A stretch of 37,110 bases of DNA from Candidatus Choladousia intestinigallinarum (GTDB lineage: Bacteria > Bacillota > Clostridia > Lachnospirales > Lachnospiraceae), in NCBI GenBank assembly GCA_018712605.1, contig DVGR01000015.1, positions 1 through 37,110 on the forward strand, written 5' to 3'. The first letter of the stretch is position 1. Each line of letters starts with the position of its first letter. Below are positions 19,692 to 26,966 of this stretch, piece by piece. Made by a program: the position numbers and the translations under genes. Below the pieces are notes generated by a model. That model ran no database searches and was not told the DNA's origin. It worked only from the letters and a program-made list of their open reading frames with translations.

Positions 19692-19711
19692 ATGTGGTGA
19701 CTCACCACATA
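19691..19711. repeat. Perfect 21-bp palindrome TATGTGGTGA-C-TCACCACATA abutting the tRNA 5' end
   Basis: 10-bp arms around one central base; covers the predicted tRNA transcription start. Confidence 0.8.
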
Positions 19712-19740
19712 TTTATACCATATCATGAAAAGAATGTCAA
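19712..19740 (-). promoter_or_regulatory. tRNA-Trp promoter TTGACA-17 nt-TATAAA (minus strand)
   Basis: + strand tgtcaa 19735-19740 and tttata 19712-19717, 17-nt spacer. Confidence 0.75.
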
Positions 19741-19783
19741 CAAGATTCGTTGTGAAATTTTAGAAGTCATTAGGAGAACCCAT

Positions 19784-20776
19784 ATGAAACGTATTTTAGT
19801 GATTGCCACCGGAGGCACCATAGCTTGCCGGGAGGGAAAGGAAGGGCTTGTTCCGGAGCTGACTTTGGAACAGCTTTTGAATTATGTACCACAGATTCGG
19901 AAACACTGTGAATTAGGAGCGGTTCAGCTTATGAATTTGGACAGCTCCAACATGCAGCCCTGCCACTGGCTGGAAATAGCCGGCAGGATTGCGGAAGAAT
20001 ATGAAAAATATGATGGATTTGTGGTGCTTCACGGCACGGATACCATGGCTTACACGGCGGCGGCCCTGTCCTATCTCCTTCAGGAGGGCCCTAAGCCGGT
20101 GGTGCTGACGGGAGCCCAAAAACCTATAGATCAGGATATCTCGGACGCCAGGGGAAACGTGATCCAGAGTATTCTGTATGCCTGCGACGACAGGGCCAGT
20201 GACGTGAACTTTGTCTTTAACGGGGAAGTGATTGCCGGAACCAGGGGCAGAAAGATAAGGACCAAGAGCTTTAATGCCTTTTCCAGTATGGATTTTCCCC
20301 ATAAAGCTGTTATAAGAGACAATCATGTGGTGCATTATATTGACAGAAAAAATGCCGGCCCCTTGAAAGTCTATGACCGTCTGGATGAAAAGATCTTTGC
20401 CCTGCGGCTGATCCCGGGGCTGGATGCGGGGATTCTGGAGGAACTTGGCAAACGGTATCATGGAATTATTCTGGAGGGCTTTGGCATCGGAGGCTTCCCC
20501 AGCCTTGAGGAAATGGGATTCCGGGAAGGGATCACAAGGCTTTTGGATCAGGGAGTGGTGGTGGTAGCCACTACCCAGGTTCCCCTGGAGGGGAGCGATC
20601 TTGACGTGTACGAGGTGGGGAGGCTGTTCAAAAAAGACGAGAGGCTTCTGGAAGCCTACAATATGACCCTGGAGGCCATTGCCACAAAGCTTATGTGGAT
20701 TCTGCCGCAGACAAGGGAGTGGAAAGAGATTCACAGGCTGTTCTATAAGGAAATCAATTTCGATATTTGGAGATAA
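19784..20776 (+). CDS. L-asparaginase (type I, AnsA-like)
   Basis: ATG 19784 after taggaga; ILVIATGGTIAC and VLHGTDTMAYTAAALSYLL. The tracked start at 19694 lies in the tRNA promoter. Confidence 0.92.
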   Translation: MKRILVIATGGTIACREGKEGLVPELTLEQLLNYVPQIRKHCELGAVQLMNLDSSNMQPCHWLEIAGRIAEEYEKYDGFVVLHGTDTMAYTAAALSYLLQEGPKPVVLTGAQKPIDQDISDARGNVIQSILYACDDRASDVNFVFNGEVIAGTRGRKIRTKSFNAFSSMDFPHKAVIRDNHVVHYIDRKNAGPLKVYDRLDEKIFALRLIPGLDAGILEELGKRYHGIILEGFGIGGFPSLEEMGFREGITRLLDQGVVVVATTQVPLEGSDLDVYEVGRLFKKDERLLEAYNMTLEAIATKLMWILPQTREWKEIHRLFYKEINFDIWR

Positions 20777-20834: not shown

Positions 20835-20899
20835 AAATGATAGTGTCTTTCTACGGTGGACATATGTAAAGAGAGAAAAAACGAAGGAGAGTGATACGC

Positions 20900-21811
20900 T
20901 TGGCTAAGTACGTGGTGAAGAGAGTATTGTTAGCGTTTGTAACGGTATTTATCATCTGTGCCATTACATTTTTTGCTATGAATGCGATTCCGGGAGGCCC
21001 GTTCAATTCTGAGAAAGCCCTGAGCCCGGATGTACAGGCAGTTTTGATGGAGAGGTATAATCTGGATAAACCAGTTACCACCCAGTTTGTGCTGTATCTT
21101 CAGAATCTGGTGCACGGAGATTTCGGTGTTTCCCTGAAGACAGGAAGAGAGATCAGCACGATTATTTCAGATGCGGCGGTGATTTCGGCAAGACTGGGAG
21201 GAATGGCGGCTGTGATAGCCATAGTCTGTGGGATTGTCCTGGGAAGCCTGGCAGCCCTTATGAGGAACAAGCTTCCGGACCGTCTGATTATCTTTTTCTC
21301 CACTCTGGGCGCTGCCGTACCCAGCTTCGTTCTGGCCACGCTGCTGCTTTTGGTATTCTGTATACAGTTGAAATGGTTCCCGGTATGGAGTTCATCGAGT
21401 CCTAACTACGTCCTTCCGGTGATTGCCCTGTCCATCTACCCCATGGCTTACATCACCCGTCTGACGAAAACCAGTATGCTGGACGCCCTGAGCCAGGATT
21501 ACGTAAGAACGGGAAGGGCGAAAGGAGTTGCTCAGTGGAAGCTGATCTTTAAGCACGCTCTGAGAAACGCTCTGATTCCGGTTATTACCTATGTGGGTCC
21601 CATGGTGGCCTATATCCTTACGGGAAGCCTTGTAGTAGAAAATATTTTCACCATCGGCGGACTGGGGACACAGATGGTGGACGGGATCACCAACCGGGAT
21701 TACCCCCTGATTATGGCTACCACCATTTTCCTGGCGGTGATGATGGTTATCATGAATCTGCTGAGCGATTTGGTTTATAAGCTGGTGGATCCCAGAATTA
21801 CGTTTAAATAA
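20900..21811 (+). CDS. oppB: Peptide ABC transporter permease OppB/DppB-like
   Basis: Probable TTG start after ggagag; YVVKRVLLAFVTVFIICAITFFAMNAIPGGPF; BPD permease signature. Confidence 0.9.
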   Translation: MAKYVVKRVLLAFVTVFIICAITFFAMNAIPGGPFNSEKALSPDVQAVLMERYNLDKPVTTQFVLYLQNLVHGDFGVSLKTGREISTIISDAAVISARLGGMAAVIAIVCGIVLGSLAALMRNKLPDRLIIFFSTLGAAVPSFVLATLLLLVFCIQLKWFPVWSSSSPNYVLPVIALSIYPMAYITRLTKTSMLDALSQDYVRTGRAKGVAQWKLIFKHALRNALIPVITYVGPMVAYILTGSLVVENIFTIGGLGTQMVDGITNRDYPLIMATTIFLAVMMVIMNLLSDLVYKLVDPRITFK

Positions 21812-21826
21812 AAAGGAGATGGACGA

Positions 21827-22900
21827 ATGCAGAACGAAAATAATATTCCAAAGAAAAATCCGCTGAGTCTTCAGATGGACCTGTCGAAATTTGAACTGGC
21901 TTCAGAGGAAGAGAAGGCCCAGCAGGAGGTTATGAGCGAGTCCACCACCTTTTTTAAAGATGGTATGCGCAAGCTCATGAAAAATCCCCTGGCCGTGGGA
22001 AGTATTATCGTGTTGGTGCTGGTAATCCTTCTGGCTACTTTCGGGCCTATGGTGGTTCCCTACAGCTACGATGAGATGATTTCCATTGACGGAAGAAGGG
22101 ATAAGAGAGCGAAGAACCTGGCTCCCTTTACCTGGTCTGAGACAGAGCAGAAATACATCGATGAGGGGGGGGAGCTTTTCCCGCATATTCTCGGAACGGA
22201 TGAACTCTGCCGTGACTATTTTGTCCGGGTTCTCTACGGAACAAGAGTGTCTCTGCTGGTAGGGCTTTTCGCCAGCCTTATCGTGCTGGTGATCGGACTG
22301 CTGTACGGCAGTATATCCGGCTACGTGGGCGGGAAGACGGATTTGATTATGATGCGTATTGTGGATATCATATACTCCCTGCCTGACATGCTTATGGTAA
22401 TCCTGCTGTCCGTGGTGCTGAAGGAGACTCTGGGCTCCGCCATCGAAGGGACAGTTTTCGCCAAGGTCGGAACCAACATGCTTTCCCTGTTCCTGGTGTT
22501 CGGCTTCCTGTACTGGGTAGGTATGGCCAGGCTTGTGAGAGGCCAGATTCTCTCAGTAAAAGAAAATGAATACATTCTGGCTGCCAGAGCCATCGGGACG
22601 AAGCCGGGGCGGATTATCAGAAAGCATATCCTGCCCAACTGTATCAGTGTCATCATTATTTCCACGGCTCTTCAGATTCCTTCGGCAATCTTTACGGAAA
22701 GCTTCTTAAGCTTCCTGGGACTGGGTGTACAGGCTCCCATGCCTTCCCTGGGTTCCCTGGCAAATGCGGCCAGAGAAGGACTTCAGAGCTACCCGTATAA
22801 GCTGGTATTCCCGGCGCTGATGATTTGTCTGATTGTACTGGCCTTTAACCTGCTGGGCGACGGCCTGCGGGATGCTTTTGACCCGAAACTGAGGAGGTAA
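21827..22900 (+). CDS. oppC: Peptide ABC transporter permease OppC/DppC-like
   Basis: HILGTDELCRDYFVRVLYGTRVSLLVGL; EYILAARAIGTKPGRIIRKHILPN. Confidence 0.92.
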   Translation: MQNENNIPKKNPLSLQMDLSKFELASEEEKAQQEVMSESTTFFKDGMRKLMKNPLAVGSIIVLVLVILLATFGPMVVPYSYDEMISIDGRRDKRAKNLAPFTWSETEQKYIDEGGELFPHILGTDELCRDYFVRVLYGTRVSLLVGLFASLIVLVIGLLYGSISGYVGGKTDLIMMRIVDIIYSLPDMLMVILLSVVLKETLGSAIEGTVFAKVGTNMLSLFLVFGFLYWVGMARLVRGQILSVKENEYILAARAIGTKPGRIIRKHILPNCISVIIISTALQIPSAIFTESFLSFLGLGVQAPMPSLGSLANAAREGLQSYPYKLVFPALMICLIVLAFNLLGDGLRDAFDPKLRR

Positions 22901-22904
22901 TGGA

Positions 22905-23921
22905 ATGGCGGACGAGAAGAGAGAATATTTATTGGAAGTAAAAGATCTTCACACTTCCTTTGTTACGGATTCGGGAGAGGTGAAGGCTGTAAACGGCGTA
23001 TCGTTTAATCTCCGCGAGGGAGAGGTGCTGGGAATCGTAGGGGAGTCGGGCTCAGGAAAGAGTGTTACTGCGTACTCCATTATGCAGATTCTGGCGGAAA
23101 ACGGCAGAATAACCTCTGGCCAGGTACTTTACCGGGGAGAGGATATTACCAAATATACGAAAAAGCAGATGGCTTCCTTCCGTGGGAAAAAATGCAGTAT
23201 GATTTTCCAGGATCCCATGACCAGCTTAAATCCGGTCTTTACTGTGGGAAACCAGCTTATGGAGGCGATTCTGCTGCACACGGACAAGAACCGTGCCCAG
23301 GCAAGAGAGCGGGCGGTGGAGATGCTGAAGCTGGTAGGCGTAAATGAGCCGGAGCGCAGAATTAAGCAGTATCCCCATGAACTTTCCGGCGGTATGCGTC
23401 AGAGGGTGATGATCGCCATGGCTCTGGCCTGCGAACCGGATATCCTGATTGCCGACGAGCCTACCACGGCTCTGGACGTGACGATCCAGGCACAGATTCT
23501 GGAGCTGATGCAGAAGCTTCAGAAGACACTGGGGATGGCTATTATCATGGTGACCCATGACCTGGGCGTCATTGCGGACATGTGTGACAAGATCATCGTT
23601 ATGTACGGCGGAAGCGTCTGCGAGAGAGGGACGGCGGACGATATCTTCTATGATCCCAAGCACGAATATACGAAAGGGCTGCTGCGCTCAATTCCCAATG
23701 TAAATAACAGTAAGGAGCGGCTGGTTCCCATCAGCGGTACGCCCATCAATCTTTTGAATATGCCTAAGGGCTGTGCTTTCTGCAGCCGGTGTGACCAGGC
23801 TATGAAGATCTGCCTGGAAGAGAAGCCAAAAGAACTGTCACTCAGCGATACTCACAGCGCATCCTGCTGGATGAATGTAAAGCAGATGGCGGAAGAACAG
23901 GCAGGAGGTACACAAGTATGA
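22905..23921 (+). CDS. oppD: Peptide ABC transporter ATP-binding protein OppD/DppD-like
   Basis: [30 protein letters not shown] and C-terminal [14 protein letters not shown] motif. Confidence 0.94.
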
Positions 23922-24880
23922 GCAGTGAATATCTGGTAGAGGTTAAAGATTTAAAACAGTATTTTCCTATCAGCACAGGTTTTATGAAAAAGACCTACCT
24001 AAAAGCTGTGGACGGGGTGTCTTTTCAGATCAAAGCGGGAGAGACCCTGGGCCTGGTAGGAGAATCCGGCTGCGGAAAAACGACTGTAGGCCGCACGCTG
24101 CTCCGTCTGTATGAGCCTACGGGGGGAGAAGTACTTTTTAACGGTGAAAAAGTAACGGCCCAGAACATGCTTCACCTTCGCAAGGAGATGCAGATGGTGT
24201 TCCAGGATCCCTACTCTTCTCTGAATCCCAGGATGACAGTGGAGGATATCATCGGGGAGCCTCTGGACGTACACAAGCTGTATACGACAAAAGAAGAGCG
24301 GAGGAAAAAGATTCTGGAGCTGATGGAGCTGGTGGGACTGAATGCGGAGCATGCCAGAAGGTATGCCCATGAGTTCTCCGGCGGACAGAGACAGAGAATT
24401 GGAATCGCAAGGGCGCTGGCAGTAAACCCCAAGTTTATTGTCTGCGATGAGCCGGTCAGCGCCCTGGACGTATCTATCCAGGCCCAGGTGGTGAATATGT
24501 TCGAGGATCTTCAGCATAAGCTGGGAGTCGCTTACCTGTTTATCGCCCACGACCTGCTGATCGTGCGCCACATTTCAGACAGAATTGCGGTAATGTACCT
24601 GGGAAAAATCGTGGAGATCGGGGATGCTGACGAAGTCTATGAACAGCCCAAACATCCGTATACGATCTCGCTTTTGAGCGCAGTGCCGGTTCCCGACCCC
24701 AACACGGCCAGGACCCAGCAGCGGATTATTCTGGAAGGAGACGTGCCGAGTCCTATGAATATGCCTACGGGATGCGCCTTCCGCTCCAGATGCAGATATG
24801 CCACGGAGAAGTGTGCCAAGGAGTGCCCGCCTTTGGAAGATAGAGGCAACGGACATTTTGTTGCATGTTGGAACAAATAG
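23918..24880 (+). CDS. oppF: Peptide ABC transporter ATP-binding protein OppF/DppF-like
   Basis: [30 protein letters not shown]; 4-bp overlap with oppD. Confidence 0.94.
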
Positions 24881-24889: not shown

Positions 24890-24933
24890 TGCACTGAAAA
24901 ATGAGTTTGCAGGAGAAATCCTTTAAACTAAAC

Positions 24934-24949: not shown

Positions 24950-24975
24950 AAAAAATTTATACGGAGGTAAGAAGT

Positions 24976-26871
24976 ATGAAAAAGAAGAAACTTATGGCTC
25001 TGGCATTAGCAGCAGTTACTGCCGTTGCTCCGGTATCTTCCGCATTTGCTGAGGAGACGGAAGCTGTTACAGAAGCAGTGACCGAGGCCGCAGCAGAGGA
25101 AACGGAAGCGGCAGAGGAGACCGAGGCTGTTACAGAAGCCGCAGCAGAGGAGACCGAGGCTGTTACAGAAGCCGCAGCGGAAGAGACCGAGGCTGCAGAG
25201 GATGCAACTGAGGTAGCAGAAGAGAGCGCAGCAGTGACTGGAGCAGTGGCTGAGAAGTCTTCTGAGGCAGCTCCCGACTGGCAGGCTTACAATGATCTGA
25301 TTGCACAGATCAGAGTAGAGACTGATTCTGTAAAGCGTGAGGCTATGCTTCATGAGGCAGAGGATATGCTGATGGAGACAGGAGCAATCCTTCCCCTGTA
25401 CTACTACAATGACATTTATCTGCAGAGAGACGGCCTGACCGGCGTTTACAGCAACCTCTACGGATTTAAATACTTTATGTTCGCTGATTTCGGCGACAAC
25501 ACGACCCTGAGCATCAACCTGGCAAGTGAGCCGGATAAGCTGGATCCCGCCCTGAACTCTACGGTTGACGGCGCATGCCTGGCTGTAAACAGCTTCGCAG
25601 GACTTTTCGCATACAATGAGAATGGTGAAGTAGTGCCGGATCTTGCTGAGAGCTATGAAGTAAGCGAGGACGGTCTGACCTATACCTTCACTCTGAGAGA
25701 CGGCCTGATGTTCAGTGATGGTTCCGAACTGACCGCTAAGGATGTAGAATACTCCTGGAAGCGTGCAGCGGATCCTCAGACTGCAGCAGACTACTCCTAC
25801 ATGTTTGACGTAATCGCAAGAAACGGAGAGGATCTTGACGTTACAGCCAGCGAAGACGGCAAGACCCTTACTGTAAACCTTACAGCTCCCTGTGTATACT
25901 TCCTGGATCTGTGTGCGTTCCCCGCATACTACGTAGTACCCCAGGCAAGTGTTGAAGGCGCAGAGGGATGGGAGACCACACCTGGCGCATGGGCTCAGGA
26001 GGCAGGCTTCGTAACCAGCGGCGCTTACACTCTTAAGGAGTGGAAACACGGCGAGAGCATGATTTATGTAAAGAACCCCAACTACTACAGAGCAGACGAA
26101 GTGAAGATCGAAGAGCTTCATTTCATGCTCAGCGAGGATGCAACCGCAATCTACGCTGCTTACCAGGCAGGCGACATCGACTTTGAGGATACCATCCCCA
26201 CAGACGAAGTGGCAGCTCTTCTGGACAATCCGGAATTCCACAGTGTAGACCAGCTTGGTACCTACTATGTAGCATTTAACGTAAACAGCCCCATCTTCGA
26301 AGGCAAGACTCCGGAGCAGGCTAACGCTATGAGAAAAGCTCTGGCTCTTCTGGTTGACCGTGAGTTCATCTGTGAGAATATCGGACAGACTGGACAGGTT
26401 CCGGCCAACACCTTCGTTCCCGCTGGTATGAACGACGGCAACGGCGGCGTATTCCGTGAGAATGACGACGCTTACACATATCCCAACGAGGCTGCTGTAG
26501 GATACTATGATCCTTCCTACGATGCATACGATGCAAACGTAGAAGAGGCAAGAGCTCTTCTGACAGAGGCAGGCTTTGAGTTCACAGAAGACGGTATGCT
26601 TTCTGACAGCACACCGCTGAATCTGAGCTACCTGACCAATGAAGGTGAGTCCAACGTGGCAATCGGTGAGGCTCTTCAGCAGGATTTCGCTGCAATCGGC
26701 ATCAACCTGACCATCGAGACCTCTGACTGGAACGTATTCCTGAATGAGCGTAAAGCCGGCAACTACGACGTAGCCCGCAACGGCTGGATCGCAGACTTCA
26801 ACGATCCTATCAACATGCTTGAGATGTGGACCTCTGACAGCGGAAACAACGACTGCCAGTTCGGTAGATAA
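24976..26871 (+). CDS. Peptide-binding protein (SBP family 5, OppA-like) with apparent circular permutation
   Basis: ATG 24976 after acggaggt; signal peptide MKKKKLMALALAAVTAVAPVSSAFA. Order is signal, TEA linker, C-terminal-type segment, then TTLSINLASEPDKLDPALNSTVDG ... to NGWIADFNDPINMLEMWTSDSGNNDCQFGR*. Confidence 0.9.
   Translation: MKKKKLMALALAAVTAVAPVSSAFAEETEAVTEAVTEAAAEETEAAEETEAVTEAAAEETEAVTEAAAEETEAAEDATEVAEESAAVTGAVAEKSSEAAPDWQAYNDLIAQIRVETDSVKREAMLHEAEDMLMETGAILPLYYYNDIYLQRDGLTGVYSNLYGFKYFMFADFGDNTTLSINLASEPDKLDPALNSTVDGACLAVNSFAGLFAYNENGEVVPDLAESYEVSEDGLTYTFTLRDGLMFSDGSELTAKDVEYSWKRAADPQTAADYSYMFDVIARNGEDLDVTASEDGKTLTVNLTAPCVYFLDLCAFPAYYVVPQASVEGAEGWETTPGAWAQEAGFVTSGAYTLKEWKHGESMIYVKNPNYYRADEVKIEELHFMLSEDATAIYAAYQAGDIDFEDTIPTDEVAALLDNPEFHSVDQLGTYYVAFNVNSPIFEGKTPEQANAMRKALALLVDREFICENIGQTGQVPANTFVPAGMNDGNGGVFRENDDAYTYPNEAAVGYYDPSYDAYDANVEEARALLTEAGFEFTEDGMLSDSTPLNLSYLTNEGESNVAIGEALQQDFAAIGINLTIETSDWNVFLNERKAGNYDVARNGWIADFNDPINMLEMWTSDSGNNDCQFGR
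25114..25200 (+). repeat. 33-bp tandem coding repeat (EETEAVTEAAA) in the signal-distal linker
   Basis: Units 25114-25146 and 25147-25179 differ at one base, followed by a partial third copy. Confidence 0.85.
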
Positions 26872-26926
26872 TTCATCCGGTATTTATAAAAAAGAGACTG
26901 CTATAGAATAGCGTTCCTTAGCAAAG

Positions 26927-26966
26927 GGAGGACAGCGGCTTAAGCCGCTGTCCTCCTAATTTTATT
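26927..26966 (+). terminator. Intrinsic terminator GGAGGACAGCGGC-TTAA-GCCGCTGTCCTCC-taatttta
   Basis: Perfect 13-bp stem (26927-26939/26944-26956) followed by a T-rich tract. Confidence 0.85.

Follow-up and report, generated by a model that had tools for sequence, protein, structure and literature searches.

Natural circular permutation of a ligand-binding protein of an ABC importer has a precedent in TpMglB-2 (Tp0684) of Treponema pallidum, a 'Type Ic/Cluster Bc' protein for which ligand binding has been demonstrated experimentally and which has relatives in Gram-positives (PMC4990184). With subscription literature outside the scope, no other natural permutation of an ABC-importer binding protein was found, and there was none for family 5; a literature search on family 5 or OppA in connection with permutation, within the same limits, returned nothing relevant. 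For other proteins, namely swaposin and DNA methyltransferases, permutation by duplication has been proposed, with fused tandem intermediates predicted along the route (PMC3320104).

The protein described here is encoded in a 37,110-nucleotide stretch of the Lachnospiraceae genome Candidatus Choladousia intestinigallinarum (contig DVGR01000015.1), hereafter the window. It resembles the family-5 (cluster C) solute-binding proteins (SBPs) OppA, DppE and DppA in sequence family, predicted fold, oppBCDF operon and the retention of a Trp/Asp pair, but differs from them in that their canonical C-terminal ~73 residues lie at its N-terminal side and that its tether enters lobe 2. With TpMglB-2 it shares natural permutation of an ABC-importer binding protein and relatives in Gram-positives. 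The two are, however, not homologous at the family level: TpMglB-2 is of the Type I/cluster B sugar family, with one topology in which a fourth hinge crossing is added, and recurrence has not been reported for it. Homology of the window protein to MglB or cluster B found no support, since SBP_bac_5 is its sole Pfam family and its structural matches are of OppA and DppA types.

We consider it very probable that the gene encodes an OppA-type (SBP_bac_5) peptide-binding protein which has been circularly permuted in nature, looks functional and serves the upstream oppBCDF importer; on this reading it is otherwise an ordinary receptor with both lobes intact. Sequence alone shows how its parts are ordered, that this order is conserved, that the gene sits in an opp operon and is under purifying selection, and that relatives exist with other cuts; no expression, folding, binding or transport experiment is available. 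The recurrence of permutation within family 5 is unusual. Natural circular permutations are mostly isolated curiosities; here one large, well-studied family offers several cuts, sister proteins of normal order in the corresponding operon slot, and intermediate-like fused tandems, so that both the route and the fitness effect become testable with natural pairs. Permuted SBPs also supply natural termini for the engineering of peptide sensors from OppA.

The rotated chain and its match to OppA

The first-pass annotation had the chain running from a signal peptide through a TEA-rich linker and a displaced block to the rest of the protein, and this order is borne out by the reading frame, the residue order and the coordinates (Table 1). 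The stop codon directly follows SGNNDCQFGR. The position of the GGAGG sequence favours a start at ATG 24976 over an earlier in-frame ATG at 24901. As to the expression signals proposed for the gene, the terminator was confirmed but the candidate promoter found no confirmation in a consensus scan. The window's own subclade of permuted SBPs has a signal peptide without a lipobox, unlike most relatives: 47 of 79 permuted relatives are lipoproteins by a strict pattern, and about 55 by eye.

Table 1. Coordinates, within the window, of the permuted SBP gene, its parts and the neighbouring opp genes.
Feature	Position	Strand	Basis
OppB-like permease	20891..21811	+	Pfam BPD_transp_1 6.7e-44 + BPD_transp_1_N
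OppC-like permease	21827..22900	+	Pfam BPD_transp_1 3e-34 + OppC_N
OppD-like ATPase	22905..23921	+	Pfam ABC_tran 8.8e-33 + oligo_HPY
OppF-like ATPase	23918..24880	+	Pfam ABC_tran 4.6e-38 + oligo_HPY
Shine-Dalgarno-like GGAGG, 8 bases 5' of ATG 24976	24963..24967	+	Sequence
Circularly permuted OppA-type SBP, 631 aa	24976..26871	+	ORF and profile matches
Predicted signal peptide MKKKKLMALALAAVTAVAPVSSAFA, without lipobox Cys	24976..25050	+	Sequence compared with relatives; cleavage site inferred
Acidic TEA-rich linker, ending KSSEAAP	25051..25275	+	Sequence; relatives share the linker end
Moved block, 73 aa, DWQAYND...FADFG, equivalent to the canonical family-5 SBP C-terminal end	25276..25494	+	Profile matches
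Main part, DNTTLSINL...SGNNDCQFGR, canonical N-terminus onward, now C-terminal	25495..26868	+	Pfam SBP_bac_5 5.7e-87
W..D motif (GWIAD), aligned with OppA W416/D419	26784..26795	+	Alignment
Hairpin resembling an intrinsic terminator, 14-bp stem followed by AATTTTATTG	26926..26957	+	Terminator scan

Pfam SBP_bac_5 (PF00496) gives a single match, residues 218-625 on profile positions 1-367 of 368. This model covers only the middle of the protein and stops at the canonical position of the moved block, so alone it is blind to the window's permutation; Pfam- and annotation-based pipelines overlook such changes of order. The longer NCBIfam model PRK15104 (OppA, 543 positions) matches the native permuted protein over profile 36-466 with 207.6 bits. 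For the re-rotated protein the match extends over 39-519 and scores 222.0 bits; shuffling the block as a control lowers the score to 196.3 bits. The moved block by itself matches PRK15104 at 471-519 (17.7 bits, E 0.001), and it corresponds to S. Typhimurium OppA from residue ~445 onward. When a profile was made from 71 permuted relatives, its match to B. subtilis OppA fell into two pieces: positions 77-529 lie on chain 18-450, and positions 7-73 follow on chain 456-522, with an i-E of 5.8e-9 for this second, reordered match. DppE shows the same two-piece reordered match (i-E 2.7e-13), as does enteric OppA. Matches of this kind lie far beyond chance and, at the level of sequence, constitute the signature of circular permutation.

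The homology of the N-terminal block to the family-5 C-terminus, as earlier proposed, thus rests on the rotation and shuffle comparison and on the split profile match; circular permutation behind the signal peptide is supported by these and by the conserved order. The suggested profile check for split, reordered matches succeeded with the profile of permuted relatives on OppA and DppE but not with PF00496, whose match is single and complete. The block precedes the main part in the linear chain, which thus lacks the canonical order with the block after GNN..; judged by homology the protein is still a member of SBP_bac_5, as a permuted variant. When a profile of the closure, that is, of the fused old termini, was compared with solved structures, no chain matched in permuted order: the matches carry the two halves in their canonical places, and no permuted family-5 structure was therefore found among them.

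AlphaFold2, supplied with an alignment of 70 permuted relatives only, models the permuted chain with pLDDT 92.9 and pTM 0.90. The best PDB matches of the model in Foldseek are the OppA proteins of B. subtilis, Haemophilus and enteric bacteria, with a TM of ~0.7 to OppA over ~477 columns in a sequential alignment, in which the block is not superposed in permuted order. The residues aligned with OppA W416/D419, which bind the N-terminus of the peptide, are retained, and their equivalents in AliD, W498/D501, hold the peptide N-terminus (PMC11192437). We infer, for peptide binding from residue conservation alone, that the protein folds as a two-lobed flytrap, binds peptides between its lobes via this Trp/Asp pair and, like normal OppA, delivers them to OppBC.

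The block might instead complete the chain of a neighbour, either in a domain-swapped oligomer or as a fragment complementing a partner. Domain-swapped OppA-type dimers do exist, as in AliC (PMC11192437), and the N-terminal signal and linker region of 100 residues is flexible, but only ~4 residues join the block to the first strand, which is a natural closure of the old termini. Since, in addition, the monomer model is confident and proteins with other cut sites show the same closure, we regard an exchange between chains as unlikely and a block folding within its own chain as the better reading.

Recurrence of the order and its operon

The cut seen in the window protein is here called cut A. 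The same order recurs in about 100 other assemblies, single-contig genomes included. Within the genus sample it is present in 8 of 47 genomes, the window's among them, and a truncated copy is present in G006; the permuted proteins from other genomes of the genus, which stop at the same residue, are 53-89% identical to that of the window. In the family, contiguous closure was detected in 24 of 299 genomes, again counting the window's, and the remaining 23 were all read and are all permuted, the copy in G1101 being interrupted by one stop. A search of GTDB with the block plus the start of the main part as query found relatives encoded on 250 contigs; the best 79 of these loci are without exception permuted, two as fused double units. 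Cut A is also present in the single-contig genomes G1019 and G1101, in the isolate genome of Proteiniclasticum aestuarii (L100) and across independent studies.

A contig misjoined between two SBP copies would mimic permutation, and the window's assembly is indeed fragmented (87% complete, 279 contigs), with nine SBP_bac_5 loci. Such an assembly or binning artefact is nevertheless excluded with near certainty, because numerous independently made assemblies show an identical order, from diverged members of the genus to the isolate and the single-contig genomes. Misassembly, which the first-pass annotation had named as a possible refutation, is accordingly not upheld.

In the window the permuted gene is linked to oppBCDF, which lies directly 5' of it, and in relatives with sufficiently long flanks oppBCDF is likewise followed directly by the permuted SBP. 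A rare exception is L240, where the SBP gene precedes oppB. Unpermuted relatives (L168, L169, L242-L248) occupy the same operon slot as permuted SBPs. One of these sisters, L169:8044-9795 (G024), has a TEA-like acidic C-terminal tail which resembles the N-terminal linker of the window's permuted SBP. Directly 5' of oppB lies an asparaginase-family gene (window 19694-20776), an arrangement shared by L040 and L041. This gene may be part of the opp operon, in connection with amide or peptide use.

Compared with the 90%-identical L040, the block has a dN/dS of about 0.06 and the main part one of about 0.08, values which indicate purifying selection on both. That the gene is instead a rearranged remnant in decay, without function, might be suggested by the degenerate state of some relatives, such as L037 in G006, without half of the main part, and L241 in G1101, with its in-frame stop. 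The intact frame of the window gene, its low dN/dS, its conserved ligand-site residues, and the conservation of order and operon position across families leave this reading scarcely credible. They agree, together with the confident model and in the absence of experiment, with the earlier description of the gene as functional-looking and not decayed.

Some permuted relatives depart from the common form. The copies in the single-contig genomes G1101 (L241:7016-8848) and G819 (L206) have one in-frame stop each, TGA in the latter, and may be pseudogenes, sequencing errors or cases of recoding. The truncated copy in G006 (L037/L128) is a degenerate permuted paralogue with a truncated block and without the first half of the main part, although its frame is still open over 471 codons; diverged full-length copies of it occur in G007 and G067. 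At L116:548-2422 a dockerin type I-like repeat lies between signal peptide and permuted SBP, as if the protein were docked on a cellulosome scaffold (Pfam Dockerin_1 22.5 bits, cut-off 22.9).

Other cut sites and the number of order changes

Further permutations were found by searching for the closure and not for the whole protein. Three cut sites besides A, all with the same closure, were seen in SBP_bac_5 proteins of Bacillota, Alphaproteobacteria and haloarchaea, several of them on closed replicons. Cut B falls at about OppA 280-287 (L160, in the single-contig genome G404, L164 and L177) and cut C at about OppA 353-358 (L161, in the single-contig genome G107, L162, L163, L167, L178-L181 and L183-L186). 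Cut D, at about OppA 120-126, is represented by L216:5861-7663 on a circular 215-kb replicon of Subdoligranulum variabile. The last protein has an added Ser/Ala-rich C-terminal tail.

Cut C extends to the haloarchaea Halalkalicoccus jeotgali (WP_238532955.1) and Natrononativus amylolyticus (WP_345781479.1), and to Ketogulonicigenium vulgare (WP_013385786.1), Nitratireductor (WP_113156578.1) and Roseomonas marmotae (WP_237182973.1) among Alphaproteobacteria. In the H. jeotgali and the three alphaproteobacterial proteins, the N-terminal piece alone matches PF00496 at about 283-366 and the remainder of the chain matches it at 2-285. For Natrononativus the Pfam match to the protein is broken into two stretches, the beginning of the profile lying at the C-terminal end. 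By tblastn, closure of the haloarchaeal type is present in thirty plasmid records, of which only the five named proteins were read. In even samples searched at strict thresholds, and counting the window, 9 of 391 genomes drawn from the class and 12 of 399 drawn from the phylum contained the closure. The window's permutation is no isolated case: the family has been cut recurrently, at four or more sites.

Two candidates were discarded. Thioclava plasmid matches (H44-H46) showed a permuted-like junction in tblastn, but the gene that was read (H44) is unpermuted, and a junction match in Phyllobacterium spans two adjacent genes of normal order. The alphaproteobacterial permuted SBPs L252 and L255 adjoin genes for M28 peptidase or hydantoinase/oxoprolinase, and the signal sequence of the Ketogulonicigenium protein is Tat-like and lacks a lipobox.

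Trees were built on order-normalised sequences; they are quick-search trees with some long branches, and the tests of origin did not include L213 (G816) or any alphaproteobacterial or haloarchaeal sequence. Permuted types are interleaved with unpermuted proteins, giving nine changes on the trees. A single clade is rejected for cut B (p 7e-11), for cut C (p 3e-10) and, with nearer unpermuted relatives added, for cut A (p 3.6e-6); the first AU tests, without those relatives, did not reject a single origin of cut A (p 0.43, 0.094). Given these rejections and the position of the cut D sequence among unpermuted proteins, at least six changes of order, whether new permutations or reversions, are implied.

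One ancient permutation might still underlie all permuted family-5 SBPs, followed by re-cutting and horizontal transfer. The closure shared by all permuted forms is in its favour, as were the first trees for cut A, yet the later rejections for A, B and C speak against it, as does the 73% identity of L177 (cut B) to the unpermuted L173; moreover, re-cutting is itself a new permutation. We therefore hold a single origin to be very unlikely. Somewhat better than evenly supported, in our judgement, is a recurrent permutation of family-5 SBPs that is reversible via fused tandems, with a hot spot after SGNND.QFG[RK] that switched several times in Lachnospiraceae opp operons and at least three other cuts across Bacillota, Alphaproteobacteria and haloarchaea. 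For cut A, repeated gains and reversions cannot be distinguished.

Cut geometry, tether and inferred route

Cut A maps to about S. Typhimurium OppA 441-445, in domain III, which we take to be residues 271-486. The domain boundaries of AliD and BbOppA4 identify lobe 2 with domain III and put both old termini in domain I (PMC11192437, PMC5736914). With the cut in the former and the old termini in the latter, the tether of signal peptide and linker leaves from lobe 2, not lobe 1; we infer that an SBP so tethered still serves OppBCDF. Relocation of the tether cannot be the general reason for permutation, because a lipid anchor is absent from the permuted SBPs of Alphaproteobacteria and from some of those in Bacillota, and as an explanation of all cases it is weakened. 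Nor do all cuts lie in lobe 2, as was first supposed, since cut D maps to domain II.

A closure of 2-7 residues links the old termini; in the window protein it is a loop of about 4 (..FADF-GDNT-TLSI..). Comparison with unpermuted relatives narrows the position of the cut to within a few residues. Permuted proteins end at QFGR/K and have ..SEAAP or ..SAAP before the block. Their unpermuted same-slot relatives carry, between ..GNND.QFGK and DW..YD, a loop of 6 to 9 residues, for example DPSNTAAP; this AAP-type loop sits exactly at the cut and matches the ..SEAAP before the permuted block. More distant unpermuted relatives have there only 2-3 residues, or a different insertion of 28 residues. That nested unpermuted genes carry the AAP-type loop would fit either a reversion or an ancestral expansion of the loop.

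We infer that the gene arose by permutation by duplication, in which tandem SBP copies would fuse in frame and the outer halves would then be lost, so that the original signal and linker would now precede a rotated gene. In the present protein the old N- and C-termini, which both belong to domain I (lobe 1), are joined, and the chain is open in a domain III (lobe 2) loop after SGNNDCQFGR. A partially truncated duplication intermediate of the window's protein, of the form main part-block-main part, was not seen. The same route has been proposed for swaposin and DNA methyltransferases, and the fused tandems predicted there are seen here: L048:6530-10450 (1307 aa) and L053:4607-8593 (1329 aa) each comprise two permuted SBP units in the order block-main part-block-main part, separated by an acidic/alanine-rich linker of ~90 residues. 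Those cases differ in concerning other protein families, and family-5 SBPs have several cuts and possible reversions. Both fused frames come from rumen MAGs labelled Chloroflexi/Anaerolineaceae. Their inner main part and block stand in canonical order, from which we infer that such a fusion could resolve to either order. Tandem SBP genes also stand in runs (L220; four in Phyllobacterium), and together with the fused double units they fit permutation by duplication.
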